A DNA stretch of 34,841 nt. Source: Candidatus Galligastranaerophilus intestinavium (GTDB lineage: Bacteria; Cyanobacteriota; Vampirovibrionia; Gastranaerophilales; Gastranaerophilaceae). The position numbers were made by a program, and so were the translations under genes. The stretch covers positions 1-34,841 of the forward strand of contig DVJQ01000056.1 of the NCBI GenBank assembly GCA_018716625.1, written 5' to 3'. This document shows positions 5,756 to 27,638 of this stretch, one piece after another. A model generated the notes under the pieces. The model saw only the letters and a list, made by a program, of their open reading frames with translations. It had not been told where the DNA came from and searched no databases. Within the stretch, counting starts at the first letter, position 1. Every line of letters begins with the position of its first letter.

Positions 5756-6202
5756 TTGAGGAGGTTTACTTTTAGGCTGCAAAGTATCCTGAATATAAGG
5801 GAGAAAAAACTTGAGGATGAGAGGCTGAAACTCGCTGAAATTATATCTAAACTGGAAACACAAAAAGATATTTTGCTCGAGATGAATGAAAAAAAAGAAA
5901 ATCTGGAAAAAGAATTAAGCGATTTACTTAACAATCAGGTTCTTGATATTCAGTTTACCGTGAACTACAAAGGCTACATAAAGCAATTATCGGATGATAT
6001 TAAAACACAGTTTGAAGTAATAAAAAGAACTCAAAGCGAACTGAGCGAACAACAAAAGAAAGTTTCTGAAGCGTATAGAGAGGTAAAAATACTTGAAAAG
6101 CTAAAAGAAAAACAGTACAAAGATTTTCTGTTCGAATACGAACAAAGTCAAATAAAAGAAATCGACGACATAACAAGCTCAAGACAAAAGAAAGTTATAT
6201 AA
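5756..6202 (+). CDS. fliJ: Flagellar export chaperone/stalk protein FliJ
   Basis: FliJ is a small coiled-coil protein of the flagellar type III export apparatus; it links the FliI ATPase ring to FlhA and escorts FliM-class and hook substrates. The 148 residues are almost wholly charged helix with heptad character and open with the family hallmark FTFRLQSILNIREKKLEDE (4-22). The start is TTG at 5756, with AAGGAA 7 bases upstream; the first plausible in-frame ATG lies inside the coiled coil and would lose the hallmark. It is the first gene of the flagellar block and its stop directly abuts the fliK start. FliI, which normally precedes FliJ, is absent: the gene upstream is mlaE, 114 bases away. 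Confidence 0.87.
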   Translation: MRRFTFRLQSILNIREKKLEDERLKLAEIISKLETQKDILLEMNEKKENLEKELSDLLNNQVLDIQFTVNYKGYIKQLSDDIKTQFEVIKRTQSELSEQQKKVSEAYREVKILEKLKEKQYKDFLFEYEQSQIKEIDDITSSRQKKVI

Positions 6203-7912
6203 ATGCAAAACTTAGCTATTTTAACAAATAACTCAAATAATCAACTCGGTGAAGAGATAAATCTGTTAGGCCAAAATTTTAACACTGATGAAATAATAAA
6301 CAAAGGAAAAGACTTTTTAAAAGTTCTAAATAACGACAACGCTGCATCACAAAAAACACAGCTAAATAATAATTATCAAAACACAAATAAAAAAGATTTT
6401 AACAAGAGGGAAAACACATTAAATAAGAATAATGTAGAGAACGACAAAGACTACACTCAAGCAGTAAAAGAAAATATACAAGAAAACAAAACTGACAAAA
6501 AAGACAAAACACAAGACACAAAAAATAAAGAACAAAATACTAACGAAATTCAAAAGTACAACACTGAAACAGTTAAACAAGAAGATAAAAAGACACTTGA
6601 TGAAATAAAAGCGAAAAACGTAAAAGAATTTAGCGAAGAAACAGCACAAGGCACAAATACAAAAGTATTAAGCAGTGATGAAGTAATTCAAGAGGCAGTC
6701 AGCAAAATTAACAATCTGATTGAAACCTCATTAGACGGACAGTTAAACCTTGAAGACGTGGAAGCGCTAAAAAATGCACTTGAAGAAATACAAGCACAAA
6801 TCAATAACAATGAACTCGTTGTAAGTGAAGAAACCAAACAAGTACTAAAAGATGTTCTAAACAGGCTTCTAACTCAAAACCCCGAAGACCTTGCTGTATC
6901 AGAACTTCAAAAAGATTTGAAACAGTTATCTCAAGATATAAAAGCAGGTGCTTTCAAACCTGATTCGCAAATCAAACTTGAAGAAGAAAATTCTAATCCG
7001 AACAGAGCGCTTGAACTTGATGTTCAAGAAGTACAAACAAATAAAGAAAATAAAACAAAAGAAACGTTGAACGACAAAAACTCAAACACAATAAACACGT
7101 CCCAATCCTCTGTAAATGTATCATCACAAGTTAAAGAAGTGCAACCAACACAAGAGGACAAAGTCGACATTGAACAGCAAATGCTTGATGATATGAATGT
7201 TCAAATCGATGAAGTTTCAAGTTCGCAAACATCTTCAAATTCAAACAATCAAAACTACACAACGGCACAGGATGAAGTTATTAAACTGCAAATACAAAAT
7301 GCGGACAACGACTCAAATACACCTGTTACATTCACGTTTGACAAAACAATTAAAAACACAAACCCAAACAGTCAAATTCGTCTTGAAGGAGTTACAAAAG
7401 AGCTCAATGCAAATGATATTCTAAACCAAATAGGGTCAAAATTTGAACAACTAAAAGACGGTTCAAGCACAAAAATAACAATGACTCTGCGCCCTAATGA
7501 CCTTGGAAGAGTTACAATCGAGCTTTTATCAACAGCTAACGGAATTACAACAAATATAATTGCGCAAAACTCACAGGTAAAAGAGCTTTTGGATAAAAAT
7601 ATCGATATATTAAAACAACAACTCGCACAGCAAGGGGTAAATGTACAAAATGTCCAAGTTAAAACCGTAGAGCAAAATTCTCAAGCAAACTTGAATAACA
7701 GCTACAATGACAGAAACGGTGAACAAGGTCAAAATCAAAACAATTCAAACAGCAGAAATGACGGTCAAAATAATCAAAACAGACAACACAAAAACGAAAA
7801 CTTTAAATTTAACCATTCAAACATCATAGAAAATGTTGACTTTGAAAACACTCACAACAATGCAACAACAAGCATAAATACCCTAAGAGGAAAAATCAGT
7901 TACAATCTTTAA
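6203..7912 (+). CDS. fliK: Flagellar hook-length control protein FliK
   Basis: FliK is exported during hook assembly and switches the export gate from hook to filament substrates once the hook is long enough. The 569 residues consist of a long low-complexity ruler rich in Asn, Gln, Lys, Thr and Glu (about 1-390) and a compact C-terminal Flg_hook domain at about 420-510. That domain shows TKITMTLRPNDLGRVTIEL, the signature of the switch domain (the MxLxPxxLGxVxVxL pattern), then SQVKELLDKNIDILKQQLAQ and GVNVQNVQV. A second Asn/Gln-rich tail ends the protein. Identification rests on that domain plus the position between fliJ and flgD; the ruler has little sequence constraint. The start codon directly follows the fliJ stop. 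Confidence 0.87.
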   Translation: MQNLAILTNNSNNQLGEEINLLGQNFNTDEIINKGKDFLKVLNNDNAASQKTQLNNNYQNTNKKDFNKRENTLNKNNVENDKDYTQAVKENIQENKTDKKDKTQDTKNKEQNTNEIQKYNTETVKQEDKKTLDEIKAKNVKEFSEETAQGTNTKVLSSDEVIQEAVSKINNLIETSLDGQLNLEDVEALKNALEEIQAQINNNELVVSEETKQVLKDVLNRLLTQNPEDLAVSELQKDLKQLSQDIKAGAFKPDSQIKLEEENSNPNRALELDVQEVQTNKENKTKETLNDKNSNTINTSQSSVNVSSQVKEVQPTQEDKVDIEQQMLDDMNVQIDEVSSSQTSSNSNNQNYTTAQDEVIKLQIQNADNDSNTPVTFTFDKTIKNTNPNSQIRLEGVTKELNANDILNQIGSKFEQLKDGSSTKITMTLRPNDLGRVTIELLSTANGITTNIIAQNSQVKELLDKNIDILKQQLAQQGVNVQNVQVKTVEQNSQANLNNSYNDRNGEQGQNQNNSNSRNDGQNNQNRQHKNENFKFNHSNIIENVDFENTHNNATTSINTLRGKISYNL

Positions 7913-7930
7913 AACAAACAAGGAGAGATA

Positions 7931-8527
7931 ATGTCATCGAGCATTATAAATGAAATTACAAATATGCAAAACTGGACTTCACAACAAGAAGCCCTGAAAG
8001 CTAAAACCGAAGGTACAAGCAACGAGCTTGATCAGGATATGTTTTTAAAACTTATGCTTGAACAACTTAAATATCAGGACCCGCTTAACCCTATGAGCAA
8101 CCAAGATTTCTTAGCTCAACAAGCACAATTTACACAGCTTGAACAACTTACACAATTAACCGAAACCATTGAAGCAAACAGCGGGCTTACTCAAGGTATG
8201 GATCTAATCGGCAAAGAAGTAACCCTTATGGATCCTGACGATCCGACCGCAACAATAAGCGGGGTGGTTGAAGAAGCAGTATTTTATCAAAACGGATGTG
8301 CCGTAAAAATTAATGGCAAAGAATACCCCGCAGGACTTATCCTGAGCGCAAAAGAACCATCTGCAAGTACATCAGAACCATCAGGTGAAGAAACAACTGA
8401 AGATAGTACAAATAAAGATGACAGCACAAACAGTACAAACACAGCAGTTAACGCACTCACAAACGCAGCAAGCGTATCAAGCATAGCAAGAGCTGCCAAA
8501 TACGTAACTGAAGAAATTTTAAAATAA
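7931..8527 (+). CDS. flgD: Flagellar hook assembly (capping) protein FlgD
   Basis: FlgD caps the growing hook and is needed for FlgE subunits to polymerise; it leaves when the hook is complete. The N-terminal export and capping region is clear: DQDMFLKLMLEQLKYQDPLN and MSNQDFLAQQAQFTQLEQL (about 34-78). A small beta domain follows (GMDLIGKEVTLMDP to KEYPAGLILSA, about 92-140), as in the short Bacillus-type FlgD; the larger Tudor/Ig pair of enterobacterial FlgD is absent. The last 55 residues are a Ser/Thr/Glu-rich linker and a short helix that I do not recognise. AAGGAG lies 5 bases ahead of the ATG. The gene sits between fliK and flgE. Confidence 0.92.
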   Translation: MSSSIINEITNMQNWTSQQEALKAKTEGTSNELDQDMFLKLMLEQLKYQDPLNPMSNQDFLAQQAQFTQLEQLTQLTETIEANSGLTQGMDLIGKEVTLMDPDDPTATISGVVEEAVFYQNGCAVKINGKEYPAGLILSAKEPSASTSEPSGEETTEDSTNKDDSTNSTNTAVNALTNAASVSSIARAAKYVTEEILK

Positions 8528-21841: not shown

Positions 21842-22816
21842 TTAATTCCCAAACATTTTTTGAATATAAAAACCTGCAATTGCAGCTATGCCGCCCAGAG
21901 CAGATACTAAAGAAAATACAAAAACAATCTTTTTCTCTCCCCAGCCGCAAAGTTCAAAATGATGATGAATAGGGCTCATTTTAAACACCCTTTTGCCTGT
22001 AAGTCTGAAACTTGCCACCTGTATCATAACAGAGAGAGTCTCGCATATAAAAAGTATACCGATTGGTATAAGCCACAATTCAAATTTGCCCATAATTGCA
22101 ATTGTCGCAAGTAAACCTCCAAGCGCTAAAGAGCCCGTATCACCCATAAAAATCTTGGCAGGATTTTTATTAAAATACAAAAAACCAAGACAAGCAGCAC
22201 AAGTTGCCGCAGAGATAATTGCAAGATCGGTATATCCGTTTAACTTGCACAAAATTGCACATGCGCCAAATGCAAAGACGGAACAACCCGCAGCAAGACC
22301 GTCCAAACCATCGGTTAAATTAAGTGCATTTGATGAACCGACAATCATAAACACTGCAAACAGTGGATAAAACCAGCCTAAATCAATTGAAAAGTTCATA
22401 AAACTTATCTCTGTTCTGCCTGAAAAAATCAGGTAAAAAGCAGGCAACATGGAAACAGCTATCTGCAAAAGCAGTTTACCCCTTGCTGATAAACCCATAT
22501 TTTGATGAGCCTTGATTTTTTTGATATCATCCTCAAACCCCGTAAATGTATAAAAAATAAGGGTCATAAGGACAATAAGCGCACCCGTTGTAGTTTCTTG
22601 TGCCATAAACAAAGCAATCAACGAAGCAACAAGAATTGACGCCACAAGGAAAACGCCGCCCGTTGTGGGTGTTTTATTTTTTTGCGCGTGTAATTTTGCA
22701 ACTTCTTCTCTTATGTACTGTCCATACATTTTCTTTTTCATAAACGCAAGATATGGCACACCTAATAAAAGTGTAAGTATTAGTGCTATTAATGCTGAAA
22801 CGCTCATCATTATCAT
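21842..22816 (-). CDS. mraY: Phospho-N-acetylmuramoyl-pentapeptide transferase MraY
   Basis: MraY moves phospho-MurNAc-pentapeptide from UDP to undecaprenyl phosphate, making lipid I in the inner membrane. The 324 residues contain about ten membrane helices and all catalytic loops: HAQKNKTPTTGGVF (43-56), GFEDDIKKIKAH with the DD pair at 96-97, SSNALNLTDGLDGLAAG, FMGDTGSLALGG and MSPIHHHFELCGWGEKKIV. The HHH motif marks MraY, as opposed to WecA-type transferases. The start ATG overlaps the murF stop (ATGA, 4 bases); two further in-frame ATG codons lie within the next 9 bases and could be used instead. Confidence 0.96.
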   Translation of the reverse strand: MIMMSVSALIALILTLLLGVPYLAFMKKKMYGQYIREEVAKLHAQKNKTPTTGGVFLVASILVASLIALFMAQETTTGALIVLMTLIFYTFTGFEDDIKKIKAHQNMGLSARGKLLLQIAVSMLPAFYLIFSGRTEISFMNFSIDLGWFYPLFAVFMIVGSSNALNLTDGLDGLAAGCSVFAFGACAILCKLNGYTDLAIISAATCAACLGFLYFNKNPAKIFMGDTGSLALGGLLATIAIMGKFELWLIPIGILFICETLSVMIQVASFRLTGKRVFKMSPIHHHFELCGWGEKKIVFVFSLVSALGGIAAIAGFYIQKMFGN

Positions 22817-24132
22817 AATCTGCCTACCATTTCGATTATTTCCTCAAATTTCATTGCACGAGAAGCTTTGAGCAAAATTGTAGAACCTTTTTCAATGTTT
22901 TCAAGAATATATTTTGCACATTCAAAATTAGTTTCAAACTCAACTCCCTCAAGAGTGGAACTTCTTAATATATATTTTGCCAAATTACCTACTGTTAGAA
23001 GTTTTACACCCTTGTAAGAACACAAAAACTCACCTATTTCTTTATGATAAGCAATTTCATCCTTACCAAGTTCGCCCATATTGCCTAATACAAGCACCAA
23101 GGGAGTCTTATAAACCGACAGAAAGGTTTTTAAAACAGCTTTCATCGACTCAGGATTGGCATTATAGCTGTCATTTATAAATGTCAAACCTTTTATTTTG
23201 CTTATTTCCCAACGTTTTTCGATAGGCTTATAGTTAAGCAAACCTTTTTGTATATTTTGTATCGAAATATTTAATTTTTTTGCAGCTTCAATAACCAAAA
23301 GCGCATTTTCAATATTGTAATCACCTTCAACGTTAAGTTCAAAGTCAACATTTTCATACGTAAATTTTGAATGAGAGATACTCATTTTTACATTTGAAAC
23401 ATTTTCATATCTTGTAAAAATCTTTTCACCCTCATAGTTGAGATTGTCTTTAATTCTTGTGGAATCAGGACTTATAAAAACACCGTCTTTTTTGAGTCCT
23501 GCCGCTATTTCACACTTTGCAACAGCAATATTTTTCAAATTACCCAAACGCTCAACATGGGCCGAGCCTACATTTGTCACAATGCCTATATCAGGCTCGC
23601 AATAAGATGACAGGAGTTCTATTTCACCCAAATTCCTCATGCCCATCTCAACAACGGCAGCTTCACAATCCTGAGGCATTGTAAAAAATGTTTCACACAA
23701 ACCAATTTCATTGTTGTGATTTAAAAGGGTTTTGTGAGTCTTATATGTAGTACAAAGAACACTATAGAGCATTTCTTTTGTTGTTGTTTTTCCTGAAGAC
23801 CCCGTTATCGCAACTATTTTCGGGTTAATTTTCTTTCTTATATAATTTGCAAGTTTAAGGTAAGCAACAAGAGAATTATCAACATATAAAACAAAATCCG
23901 CACTTTTATTAACTTTGTACTTATCCTGCGTAAAATAACCTCTTGCACCAGCCTCAAGCGCTTTATCTATAAAATTATGCCCGTCATAATTTTCTCCGCG
24001 CAAAGGCAGGTAAATATTCCCTTTTTGCAGTTTTCTGGTATCGGTTGAAATCTCAAAACATCCCGAGCTGTCTTTTTCAAAGAGAACTTGAGCGCCTGTA
24101 CATGTAATAATTTCACTTAATGTAAACTTCAA
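22813..24132 (-). CDS. murF: UDP-N-acetylmuramoyl-tripeptide--D-alanyl-D-alanine ligase MurF
   Basis: MurF attaches D-Ala-D-Ala to the UDP-MurNAc tripeptide, completing the pentapeptide. The 439 residues show the substrate domain (ISTDTRKLQKGNIYLPLRGE and DGHNFIDKALEAGA), the P-loop AITGSSGKTTTKEML (108-122), the HNNEIGLCET loop, VVEMGMRNLGEIELL, VTNVGSAHVERLG and FINDSYNANPESMKAVL. The DSYNANPESM motif is diagnostic for MurF. The start is TTG, with GGAG 7 bases upstream; no in-frame ATG fits. It is the first gene of the minus-strand cell-wall operon and has a predicted promoter at 24165-24193. Confidence 0.95.
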   Translation of the reverse strand: MKFTLSEIITCTGAQVLFEKDSSGCFEISTDTRKLQKGNIYLPLRGENYDGHNFIDKALEAGARGYFTQDKYKVNKSADFVLYVDNSLVAYLKLANYIRKKINPKIVAITGSSGKTTTKEMLYSVLCTTYKTHKTLLNHNNEIGLCETFFTMPQDCEAAVVEMGMRNLGEIELLSSYCEPDIGIVTNVGSAHVERLGNLKNIAVAKCEIAAGLKKDGVFISPDSTRIKDNLNYEGEKIFTRYENVSNVKMSISHSKFTYENVDFELNVEGDYNIENALLVIEAAKKLNISIQNIQKGLLNYKPIEKRWEISKIKGLTFINDSYNANPESMKAVLKTFLSVYKTPLVLVLGNMGELGKDEIAYHKEIGEFLCSYKGVKLLTVGNLAKYILRSSTLEGVEFETNFECAKYILENIEKGSTILLKASRAMKFEEIIEMVGRL

Positions 24133-24164
24133 AACAAATCTCCAAACAACAGATTTTTGAAATA

Positions 24165-24193
24165 ATTGTAAATCAAACAGAATATGATGTAAA
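24165..24193 (-). promoter_or_regulatory. Predicted promoter of the murF operon
   Basis: On the minus strand, TTTACA (24193-24188) and TACAAT (24170-24165) are separated by 17 bases, 33 bases ahead of the murF TTG. It overlaps the plus-strand promoter of the DUF4127 gene almost completely. Confidence 0.6.
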
Positions 24194-24195
24194 AT
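24166..24195 (+). promoter_or_regulatory. Predicted promoter of the DUF4127-waaA-dapF unit
   Basis: TTGTAA (24166-24171) and TAAAAT (24190-24195) are separated by 18 bases. The expected transcription start coincides with the A of the ATG at 24202, so the message may be leaderless; no ribosome site is visible. Confidence 0.5.
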
Positions 24196-24201
24196 AATTT
24201 T

Positions 24202-25608
24202 ATGAAAAAAATTGCACTTATACCTATTGATAATCGCCCTATATGCTATACGCTCGTAAGAGATATTCTTAAACAGGATAATAGCATAGAGCTTTTTATG
24301 CCTGAAAGAAATTTTCTTGGCACTCTCAAAAAAAATGCCGACATCGAAAAAATTTATAACTTTATTGAAAATATGCCAAAAGCAGACATTTTTGTAATTT
24401 CCCTTGATACTATAGCTTACGGCGGTCTTATCAGCTCAAGAAGGTGTCCTGAGAATTTCGAACAAATAAAAGAAAGACTTTTAAGTTTTAGAAAGTTACT
24501 CAAACAAAAAGCGGAAAAAATATATGCTTTCTCAAGCATAATGCGCATTTCAAACAACAACATAAACGAAGAAGAAAAAGATTACTGGGCACAATGGGGC
24601 AAAAGAATTTTTGAATTTTCATATTATCAGCACAAATCGAGAAAAGAAAAAACATATAATTGTGTCTACAATCAAGTTCCAAGGGATATTTTGGAAGACT
24701 ATTTAGACACCAGAAAGAGAAATTTTGATATAAACAAACTCTACCTTGACTGGGTTGAGGATAAAACCATTGATATGCTTGTTTTTTCAAAAGACGATAC
24801 GGGTGAATACGGTCTAAATGTTGAAGAAGCAGAACTTTTGGAATACGAAATAAAGAACCGAAAATTAAATGCACAAGTTAAAACAGGAGCGGATGAAATC
24901 CCGCTGACTCTGCTTGCAAGAGCACTTGCAGAAAACAACTCTATAAGCATGGATGTAGAATATACAAATCCTGACAGCATAGGTAAAATCTCAAGATACG
25001 AGGATATTAGCGTAAAAAATTGCGTAGAGGGTCAAATAAAACTTGCAAACTGTGCAATTTCGCAAAACACAGATTTAAAGTTCATTATAAATAACTTTAA
25101 AAACACACAGGGAGATTATGTCTTAGGGGATGTAATAAACACATTTAACAAAAGTTTTAAAGTGCCTGAAGAAAACTTTTTTGTTGCAGATATTTCAAAT
25201 GCCAACGGGGCAGATAAAGGCTTCATAAAAGAGTTAATTAAAAACAAATGCCCAAAAAATATGTATGGATTTTGCGCTTACAACACAAGTGCAAACTCTG
25301 TAGGGTGTGCTATTTTAAGTGCTGTTACGAAACTTTTGGCACAAAAAAACGGCTCATATAATGACAATGCATTTAAAAAACTAATGTTTATAAGACTGCT
25401 TGATGACTGGGCTTATCAAGCAGATATAAGAAAATTTGTAAGAGAGTCAGGGCTTGATTTTACACAAGCTCTAAAAACAAAAGTACAAGAGTTTAAAAAT
25501 TATGAAAAAATAATCGCAAATTATCTTGATTTTGATTATAATAATGTAAACTATACACTCCCTTGGGATAGAAGCTTTGAGGCAGAGATTGATGTTAAAA
25601 TTATATAA
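24202..25608 (+). CDS. DUF4127 family protein
   Basis: This 468-residue protein matches the DUF4127 family, whose function I do not know. Hallmarks are IALIPIDNRPICYTLVRDIL at the N terminus, SLDTIAYGGLISSRRCPEN (about 68-86), SSIMRISNNN, KDDTGEYGLNVEEAELLEYE, TGADEIPLTLLARALAEN and DISNANGADKGFI, and late RLLDDWAYQADIRKFVR. Conserved Asp, Arg and Asn residues suggest an enzyme. There is no signal peptide or membrane helix, so it is cytoplasmic. The last 17 bases overlap waaA, so the two should be translated together, and dapF follows. The gene diverges from the murF operon. No ribosome site precedes the ATG, and the -10 box ends 6 bases before it. Confidence 0.8.
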   Translation: MKKIALIPIDNRPICYTLVRDILKQDNSIELFMPERNFLGTLKKNADIEKIYNFIENMPKADIFVISLDTIAYGGLISSRRCPENFEQIKERLLSFRKLLKQKAEKIYAFSSIMRISNNNINEEEKDYWAQWGKRIFEFSYYQHKSRKEKTYNCVYNQVPRDILEDYLDTRKRNFDINKLYLDWVEDKTIDMLVFSKDDTGEYGLNVEEAELLEYEIKNRKLNAQVKTGADEIPLTLLARALAENNSISMDVEYTNPDSIGKISRYEDISVKNCVEGQIKLANCAISQNTDLKFIINNFKNTQGDYVLGDVINTFNKSFKVPEENFFVADISNANGADKGFIKELIKNKCPKNMYGFCAYNTSANSVGCAILSAVTKLLAQKNGSYNDNAFKKLMFIRLLDDWAYQADIRKFVRESGLDFTQALKTKVQEFKNYEKIIANYLDFDYNNVNYTLPWDRSFEAEIDVKII

Positions 25609-26851
25609 TTTTTTATACAACTTGCTGGCTGTGCCCTTAATTAATATACTTGGACTTTTTTCACAAAAAATTGAAGCAGGCAAAAAGGAAAAATTCGGCA
25701 ACTACGGCTTTAAGTTTTTAAATCGCACAATATGGATTCATGCAGTTTCAGTCGGCGAGGTTATGCTGGCTCAAACCCTCATAAACAATATGCACTTTAA
25801 AAACGATATTGTCCTTACAACATCAACACCACAAGGGCAAGAGCTTGCAAAAAATAAATTATCTGACAAATGCAAAGTTATAACTTATTTTCCCTACGAC
25901 ACAACAAAAGCGATTAAAAATGCAGTAAAAGCCATTAACCCCGAAATGGTTATAATAGTTGAAACGGAAATATGGCCAAATTTCGCCCATATAATGAAAG
26001 AGCTTGCAATACCCTTATTTATTATAAACGGAAGGATATCGGAGAGGACTTTTAAAAGCTACAAAAGACTGTCTTTTTTCTTTAAAAATGTTCTTAAAAA
26101 TTACAGTGCGATTTTAGCCCAAACAAACGAGGACGCGAAAAGATTTGTTGAAATAGGCGCAGCTGAAAACAAAGTTGTTGTATCAGGGAATATAAAATTT
26201 GACATAGAAAAACCTGATAATTATATTAAACACAAATACAGGCTGCTTTTTAAAGCACTTAATGAAAAAGTGATGATATTTGCTTCAACTCACCCTGATG
26301 AAAATAAACTATTGATAGAAACTTATGTCAAGCTAAAAGACGATTTTGAGGACTTAAAACTAATTATAGCCCCAAGACATCTTGAAAATGTTGAAAGCGT
26401 AGAAAACATACTAAACTCAAAAAGCATACTTTCAGGCAAAAAAAGTGCTGATGCCTCTTTTGATAAATGCGACGCAATAATACTTGATACAACAGGCGAG
26501 CTTTCTAATATATACAGCATATGTGACGTTTGCGTAATTTGCGGCAGTTTTGACAAAACAGGCGGACACAACCCTCTTGAGGCAACAATTTGGGGCAAAC
26601 CCGTAATTAGCGGTCCAAACATAAAAAACTTTCGCTATATATACAAAAATCTTACAGAGCAAGGCTGTGCAATAATTGTAAAAAGTACCGAGGAACTAAA
26701 AGACAAAGTAGCGGAATTTTTATCTGATGAAAAATATATTGAAAGAATAAGCACCAATTGTACAAATGCAATTGAAAAAAATAGTGGCGCGACTGATTTT
26801 ACTATAAACTACATTGAAAAATTCAACAGGGAGCAATATGAAAACAATTAA
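25592..26851 (+). CDS. waaA: 3-deoxy-D-manno-octulosonic acid (Kdo) transferase
   Basis: WaaA (KdtA) transfers Kdo from CMP-Kdo to lipid A precursor on the cytoplasmic face of the inner membrane, so the cell should make lipopolysaccharide. The 419 residues start with a hydrophobic anchor (about 5-24), then the GT-B N-terminal domain with WIHAVSVGEVMLAQ (catalytic Glu56), TTSTPQGQELA, IIVETEIWPNF and FIINGRISERTFKSYK. The C-terminal domain has IFASTHPDEN, LIIAPRHLENVE and GSFDKTGGHNPLEATIWGKP. I start at the ATG 25592, 9 bases after GAGG and inside the DUF4127 3' end. How many Kdo residues it adds cannot be told. Confidence 0.94.
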   Translation: MLKLYNFLYNLLAVPLINILGLFSQKIEAGKKEKFGNYGFKFLNRTIWIHAVSVGEVMLAQTLINNMHFKNDIVLTTSTPQGQELAKNKLSDKCKVITYFPYDTTKAIKNAVKAINPEMVIIVETEIWPNFAHIMKELAIPLFIINGRISERTFKSYKRLSFFFKNVLKNYSAILAQTNEDAKRFVEIGAAENKVVVSGNIKFDIEKPDNYIKHKYRLLFKALNEKVMIFASTHPDENKLLIETYVKLKDDFEDLKLIIAPRHLENVESVENILNSKSILSGKKSADASFDKCDAIILDTTGELSNIYSICDVCVICGSFDKTGGHNPLEATIWGKPVISGPNIKNFRYIYKNLTEQGCAIIVKSTEELKDKVAEFLSDEKYIERISTNCTNAIEKNSGATDFTINYIEKFNREQYENN

Positions 26852-27638
26852 ATTTGAAAAATGGCAAGGTCTTGGCAATGATTTCATAATTTTAACAGAG
26901 GAAAAAGCAACCCCTGAGCTTGCAAAAATAATGTGCGACAGAAATTTTGGAATAGGCGCTGATGGTCTTTTTTCACCCAAAAAAACTTTAAATACGGACA
27001 TTGGTTGGGATTTTTACAACTCTGACGGCTCAGTTGCACAAATGTGCGGTAATGGGATACGTTGTTTTGCAAAATTTGTACGTGAGCACAATTTGGTAAA
27101 CAAAGATGAATTTAGTGTAGAAACTCTTGCAGGGACAATAATACCGAGCATTTTAGAGGACGGCAGAGTACGGGTTGATATGGGCATGCCCATTTTAGAT
27201 GCAAAAAAAATACCTGTTGATGTTTCAACACCGCAAGACTTTGAAATCGAAGGTTTTAGAGCAAGCGCGGTTAGCATGGGCAATCCGCACTGTGTTATTT
27301 TTACCGATGGCGACAGTAAAAAACTTGCGCGCGAATTTGGACCAAAAATTGAGCCCCATAAACTTTTCCCGCAAAAAACAAATGTAGAATTTGTTAAAAT
27401 AGAAAATCGCTCAAAAATGCGCCTTGACGTATACGAGAGAGGCTGCGGAATTACTCTTGCATGCGGAACAGGGGCATGTGCCGCAACAGTTGCAGGCATT
27501 TTAAAAGGCTTGCTTGATAACACAGTAACCGTAGAGCTTCCGGGAGGAGAGCTTACAATAGAATACAACGGCAAAAACGTCTATATGACAGGATGTGCAA
27601 CAAAAGTTTTTGAAGGCGAATTTTTCTGTAAAAAATAA
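26838..27638 (+). CDS. dapF: Diaminopimelate epimerase
   Basis: DapF converts LL- to meso-diaminopimelate, used in peptidoglycan crosslinks and as the lysine precursor; it needs no cofactor and works with two cysteines. Both are present: Cys70 in NSDGSVAQMCGNGIRCF and Cys209 in ERGCGITLACGTGACAA. Other motifs are WQGLGNDFI, FGIGADGL and VSMGNPHCVIF. The length of 266 residues is normal. The ATG at 26838 has GGGAG 5 bases upstream and overlaps the end of waaA by 14 bases; an in-frame TTG at 26814 is less likely. It supplies the amino acid used by the Mur enzymes encoded in the divergent operon. Confidence 0.96.
   Translation: MKTIKFEKWQGLGNDFIILTEEKATPELAKIMCDRNFGIGADGLFSPKKTLNTDIGWDFYNSDGSVAQMCGNGIRCFAKFVREHNLVNKDEFSVETLAGTIIPSILEDGRVRVDMGMPILDAKKIPVDVSTPQDFEIEGFRASAVSMGNPHCVIFTDGDSKKLAREFGPKIEPHKLFPQKTNVEFVKIENRSKMRLDVYERGCGITLACGTGACAATVAGILKGLLDNTVTVELPGGELTIEYNGKNVYMTGCATKVFEGEFFCKK

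Follow-up and report, generated by a model that had tools for sequence, protein, structure and literature searches.

A gap of 69 nt (positions 24133–24201) separates two divergent genes in the 34841-nt stretch of DNA analysed here (the window), and it raises the question of how transcription in both directions can be started from so short a piece of DNA. The source genome (G000; 1.76 Mb) belongs to Candidatus Gastranaerophilales, which the NCBI taxonomy places within Candidatus Melainabacteria, adjoining Cyanobacteria. To the left of the gap lies murF (22813–24132, minus strand), with a TTG start at 24132 and a GGAG Shine–Dalgarno sequence in its leader; it is the first gene of a mraY-murD-ftsW-murG cluster, in which the names ftsW and murG were taken from the translations, without a family search. 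To the right, on the plus strand, lie a predicted leaderless DUF4127 gene (24202–25608, ATG at 24202; PF13552, E 4.4e-106), a waaA-like Kdo transferase gene (25577–26851; PF04413, E 1.5e-57) and dapF (26814–27638; PF01678, E 1.4e-60). A search for Rfam RNA elements gave no match at the gathering score anywhere in the window, and the AT skew at 6001–8000 (0.42) was unusually strong compared with the remainder. From the sequence we consider it likely that the gap is one compact two-way start site, in which two σ70-type promoters are interlocked on the same 31 bp.

The preliminary description of this gap had proposed a minus promoter, TTTACA-17-TACAAT (24193–24165), and a plus promoter, TTGTAA-18-TAAAAT (24166–24195), and both were found at exactly these positions. 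Their boxes are imperfect, matching the consensus at 10/12 positions for the minus pair and 9/12 for the plus pair. The box coordinates bear out that each −10 element lies on the −35 element of the opposite promoter: the minus −10 (24165–24170) overlaps the plus −35 (24166–24171), and the minus −35 (24188–24193) overlaps the plus −10 (24190–24195), so that two opposed promoters have their boxes on common DNA between divergent genes. The original term ‘face-to-face’ is, however, not appropriate. Transcripts from face-to-face promoters run toward and across each other and overlap, whereas here the −10 boxes are outermost and the genes diverge, so that the transcripts would depart in opposite directions from predicted starts at about 24158 (minus) and 24202 (plus), 44 nt apart, and would not collide.

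Boxes recognized by consensus alone are weak evidence. A consensus scan found 10 promoter-like sites in 2.5 kb, compared with 10.0±3.2 in shuffled sequence, and among 20000 dinucleotide shuffles of the gap a plus site appeared in 21.6%, a minus site in 17.4%, both in 3.9% and an interlocked pair in 0.69%. The sampled G000 DNA (302513 bases) held 14 interlocked pairs, three of them inside the window. What lifts the murF/DUF4127 boxes above chance is their conservation, together with their spacing from the start codons.

DUF4127 is present in all 15 genomes of the window's own genus (g1) and in 190 of the 191 genomes of the family, and among the loci examined the divergent murF/DUF4127 pair was found in six genera, namely g1, four others (g26, g35, g37 and g3) and the sister genus g21 (3/9 genomes). 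The alignment across relatives that had been suggested as a check came out in favour of both promoters, which are kept in 15/15 g1 genomes and in 29/29 genomes when g26, g35, g37 and g3 are included, with no indels. The conserved core (24165–24195, both strands) reads ATTGTAAATCAAACAGAATATGATGTAAAAT, or a close variant of it, in all 29 genomes of these five genera; the minus −10 TACAAT and the plus −35 TTGTAA occur in every one, and g3 has TACAAT as its plus −10 and TGTACA as its minus −35. As the aligned rows were cut out by a pattern that fixes 16 of the 31 columns, the invariance of those 16 is there by construction; gaps listed without pattern selection nevertheless showed the same conservation. 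Among the columns left free by the pattern, A10–A12, A14, T20 and G21 are invariant (29/29) and C9 nearly so (28/29), and the centre (columns 16–19) is variable. These free columns belong to the spacer common to both promoters (24173–24187), which is conserved beyond the needs of two hexamer pairs.

We then compared this conservation with the divergence of murF and with control promoters. Five other g1 genomes are identical to G000 at 29–31 of the 31 core positions, with 43–50% at murF four-fold sites, and eight genomes of the four other core-bearing genera at 23–29/31, with 31–52% at the four-fold sites; in the three g21 genomes the best core-like match reached only 20–22/31. The controls trailed the core in between-genus identity, with 15–21/31 for the comM promoter (10 genomes) and 16–22/31 for that of a Clp_N gene (6 genomes, a further 4 of 10 being left out as they gave no match). 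Within g1 the invariant columns out of 31 numbered 29 for the core, 25 for the Clp_N-gene promoter (in an alignment where the start of a single row, L212, is misplaced), 19 for the rsmA/GCS2 gap and 10 for comM, whose promoters preserve little beyond the −10 region. As the Clp_N-gene promoter is also strongly conserved in g1, within-genus conservation alone is not unique to the core. We also observed that the comM locus is identical in G000 (L187) and G014 (L188), both in its protein and in the upstream DNA listed, despite DUF4127 proteins that are only 77% identical; this may reflect a shared or misbinned contig, or a recent transfer.

The spacing of the boxes from the start codons was assessed in 221 genes of G000 (the window plus L147–L166) by counting the distance from the end of TANAAT to the start codon. 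In 17/221 genes this distance was exactly 6 nt, whereas the other positions averaged 1.86 genes each (maximum 4), and a Shine–Dalgarno sequence was present in none of these 17 and in 98 of the 204 others. A g6 genome had TANAAT 6–7 nt before the start in 17/138 genes (one with a Shine–Dalgarno sequence) and a g26 genome in 13/145 (none). A leaderless class of this kind makes up approximately 8–12% of genes in three Gastranaerophilales genomes, namely G000, G081 (L167–L176) and G116 (L177–L186). Other examples in G000 are a divergent pair of rsmA-like (RrnaAD) and GCS2 genes 64 nt apart (L165:1657–3841), both predicted leaderless, whose promoters seem to adjoin through the −35 regions, and a predicted leaderless 455-aa ORF (L155:8591–9955) whose only Pfam matches are to Clp_N, in five stretches.

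DUF4127 fits this class in all 29 core genomes, where its start lies 6–7 nt after the plus −10 and no Shine–Dalgarno sequence precedes it, and for these two reasons we predict that its mRNA is leaderless. Across 75 genomes, the gene fitted the leaderless type in 51 (20 of 35 genera; Shine–Dalgarno sequence in 0/51); in 19 it had no box (five of these with a Shine–Dalgarno sequence), and in the remaining five no start was found by the start rule used. Upstream of DUF4127 in other genera (L090, L091, L096, L097, L104, L105, L109 and L115) a different common sequence, (A/T)TAACATATAAT, precedes the ATG, and beyond it some of these loci have a GTTACC-like sequence that perhaps belongs to another divergent gene. 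The partner gene is usually led, with 24–97 nt from the −10 to the murF start and a Shine–Dalgarno sequence present in 27/27 genomes of g1, g26, g35 and g37 (a count that accepts GGGG too). In both g3 genomes, the murF ATG instead lies 6 nt after TACAAT, without a Shine–Dalgarno sequence. That both genes can adopt the leaderless distance from these boxes is, in our view, the strongest argument from sequence for the use of both −10 elements.

A search for the core with up to three mismatches returned a single match in the G000 genome and matches in 21 of the 191 family genomes (8 g1, 8 g26, 2 g35, 2 g37 and 1 g22), the two g3 genomes being caught only by a looser core pattern. The g22 match (L123; G069:C3:75400–75429) has three mismatches, and neither murF nor DUF4127 was found within the surrounding 3 kb, so it is probably due to chance. 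With no mismatch allowed, a pattern for the dyad found only the gap site in 15/15 genomes; one mismatch added a few scattered matches. This single site per genome, with its scattered near-matches, rules out a regulon of core-like sites. A tree built from 28 DUF4127 rows places the core-bearing genera and g21 in one group (support 99/94), within which g1 and g21 are sisters (93/93), and core presence mapped on this tree requires two changes, consistent with a single gain and a later loss in g21. Where g21 has a divergent gap, it is 110–123 nt long and its promoter-like boxes, identified by eye, stand apart; in other g21 genomes murF and DUF4127 are unlinked, as they mostly are elsewhere in the family. 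What the core tracks is the murF/DUF4127 pair.

Several other readings of the core were weighed against that of two interlocked promoters. It may mainly be an operator at which a dimeric regulator spans both promoters and sets the two transcripts together, with the boxes embedded in it, a reading that we hold to be possible but rather unlikely. Of the 15 dyad pairs of the window core, centred on position 24180, 10 are matched (8–12 over the 29 genomes), a score reached by only 0.4% of the sampled 31-mers of matching AT content, and the invariant spacer columns outside the hexamers, which the hexamers do not fully explain, leave room for such a protein, particularly when set beside the meagre conservation at comM. 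However, at zero mismatches the dyad pattern gave no second copy in any of the 15 genomes, as a regulon would require, and no regulator gene was found for the core. The conservation is also less than fully symmetrical, columns 11, 12 and 14 being invariant but not their mirror partners. The two core halves, TGATGTAAAAT and, on the opposite strand, TGATTTACAAT, each resemble a −10 box, so that part of the symmetry may reflect the similarity of the two promoters. Somewhat more doubtful still is the idea of a dedicated switch with one site per genome, acquired a single time along with the gene pairing and then lost from g21, at which either a dimeric regulator or a polymerase choosing its orientation would set murF against DUF4127, which would then act in cell-wall synthesis.

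We think it improbable that only one promoter works, most likely the leaderless plus one, with the other arising from AT-richness and the near symmetry of the boxes. The frequency of consensus interlocked pairs in the 302 kb sampled speaks for such an accident, but murF requires a start within the short gap, the minus −10 is present in 29/29 genomes and the g3 murF genes sit at leaderless distance from it. Even less credible is the suggestion, made when the gap was first described, that the overlap serves to keep the genes for peptidoglycan precursors in balance with those for Kdo and meso-DAP. In the window and in 5/5 g1 loci with long flanks DUF4127 is indeed followed by waaA and dapF, but the core is kept whatever follows: dapF is found without waaA in three g26 loci and one g35 locus, waaA is found in one g37 locus with no dapF within the 1.5 kb examined, and in G053 (g3) neither is next to DUF4127, whose neighbour is convergent and encodes PCRF and RF-1 domains. 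As the downstream genes change while the core stays, peptidoglycan against Kdo/DAP is not the conserved element of this locus; moreover, g21 manages without the core, and elsewhere in the family the pair is mostly unlinked.

In E. coli, bioA/bioBFCD and argE/argCBH also have overlapping divergent promoters in one short gap, although these, unlike the murF/DUF4127 core, are covered by a known operator (for BirA and ArgR respectively). The BirA operator of bio consists of TTGTAAACC, approximately 15 nt and GGTTTACAA; we rejected it as a candidate, the right half being TGATGTAAAA or a close variant and never GGTTTACAA in any row. The WalR/RpaB (HLR1) box, with two TGTAAA/TTTACA-type hexamers 10–11 bp apart, was discarded on spacing, the two copies here (24167 and 24188) being 21 bp apart. 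As a kind, overlapping divergent promoters are already known, from fepA–fes of E. coli (PMC4469952) among others. According to the part of that source consulted, fepA–fes has overlapping divergent σ70 promoters that may compete for polymerase, and it resembles the present locus in that the two promoters of divergent genes occupy common DNA; the murF/DUF4127 core differs in being conserved across genera, in having one leaderless side and in having no known regulator. The bidirectional promoters of Warman and Grainger are described, in the sections consulted, as having overlapping −10 elements and a distance of 7–25 bp, most often 18, between the starts (PMC10268837). The core is like them in that partly symmetrical promoter DNA would be read both ways by polymerase, but it falls outside that ‘shared −10’ class with its two separate −10 elements and its wider predicted start distance.

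The DUF4127 side resembles the TA-led leaderless genes, which have TANNNT about 12 nt before the start and lack a Shine–Dalgarno sequence (PMC3160421), and the window gene has its box in the same position and likewise no Shine–Dalgarno sequence. The same source, as far as its text was consulted, reports that many Cyanobacteria use neither signal, and the groups with leaderless genes that it names there do not include the present lineage. In the literature searched, outside which most subscription journals lay, we found neither ‘leaderless’ in connection with Melainabacteria, Vampirovibrio or Gastranaerophilales nor any mention of DUF4127, and Gastranaerophilales combined with ‘transcription start’ retrieved, in the texts as searched, a diet study only.

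Taking these data together, the two-way promoter core is very probably real, judged from its sequence across genera. We propose that RNA polymerase would bind the 31 bp core in either orientation and never in both together. Leftward initiation at about 24158 would give an mRNA of the murF cluster with a leader of about 26 nt containing the Shine–Dalgarno sequence, and rightward initiation at 24202, the first base of the DUF4127 start codon, would give a leaderless mRNA; we infer both starts, and the polymerase used, from the boxes. Initiation in the two directions should be mutually exclusive on steric grounds, as a polymerase bound for one direction would sit on the opposite promoter's boxes within these 31 bp, and this exclusion probably does no more than set a fixed ratio of two housekeeping transcripts. 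As regulation, the core is otherwise ordinary. Its significance is as a clean, naturally replicated interlocked two-way promoter across several genera, for which g21 provides a core-less sister genus for comparison. With a predicted leaderless gene on one side and a led one on the other, and no predicted leader on either side in g3, it allows the minimal spacing of divergent start codons to be studied, and it links the uncharacterized DUF4127 gene to murF.
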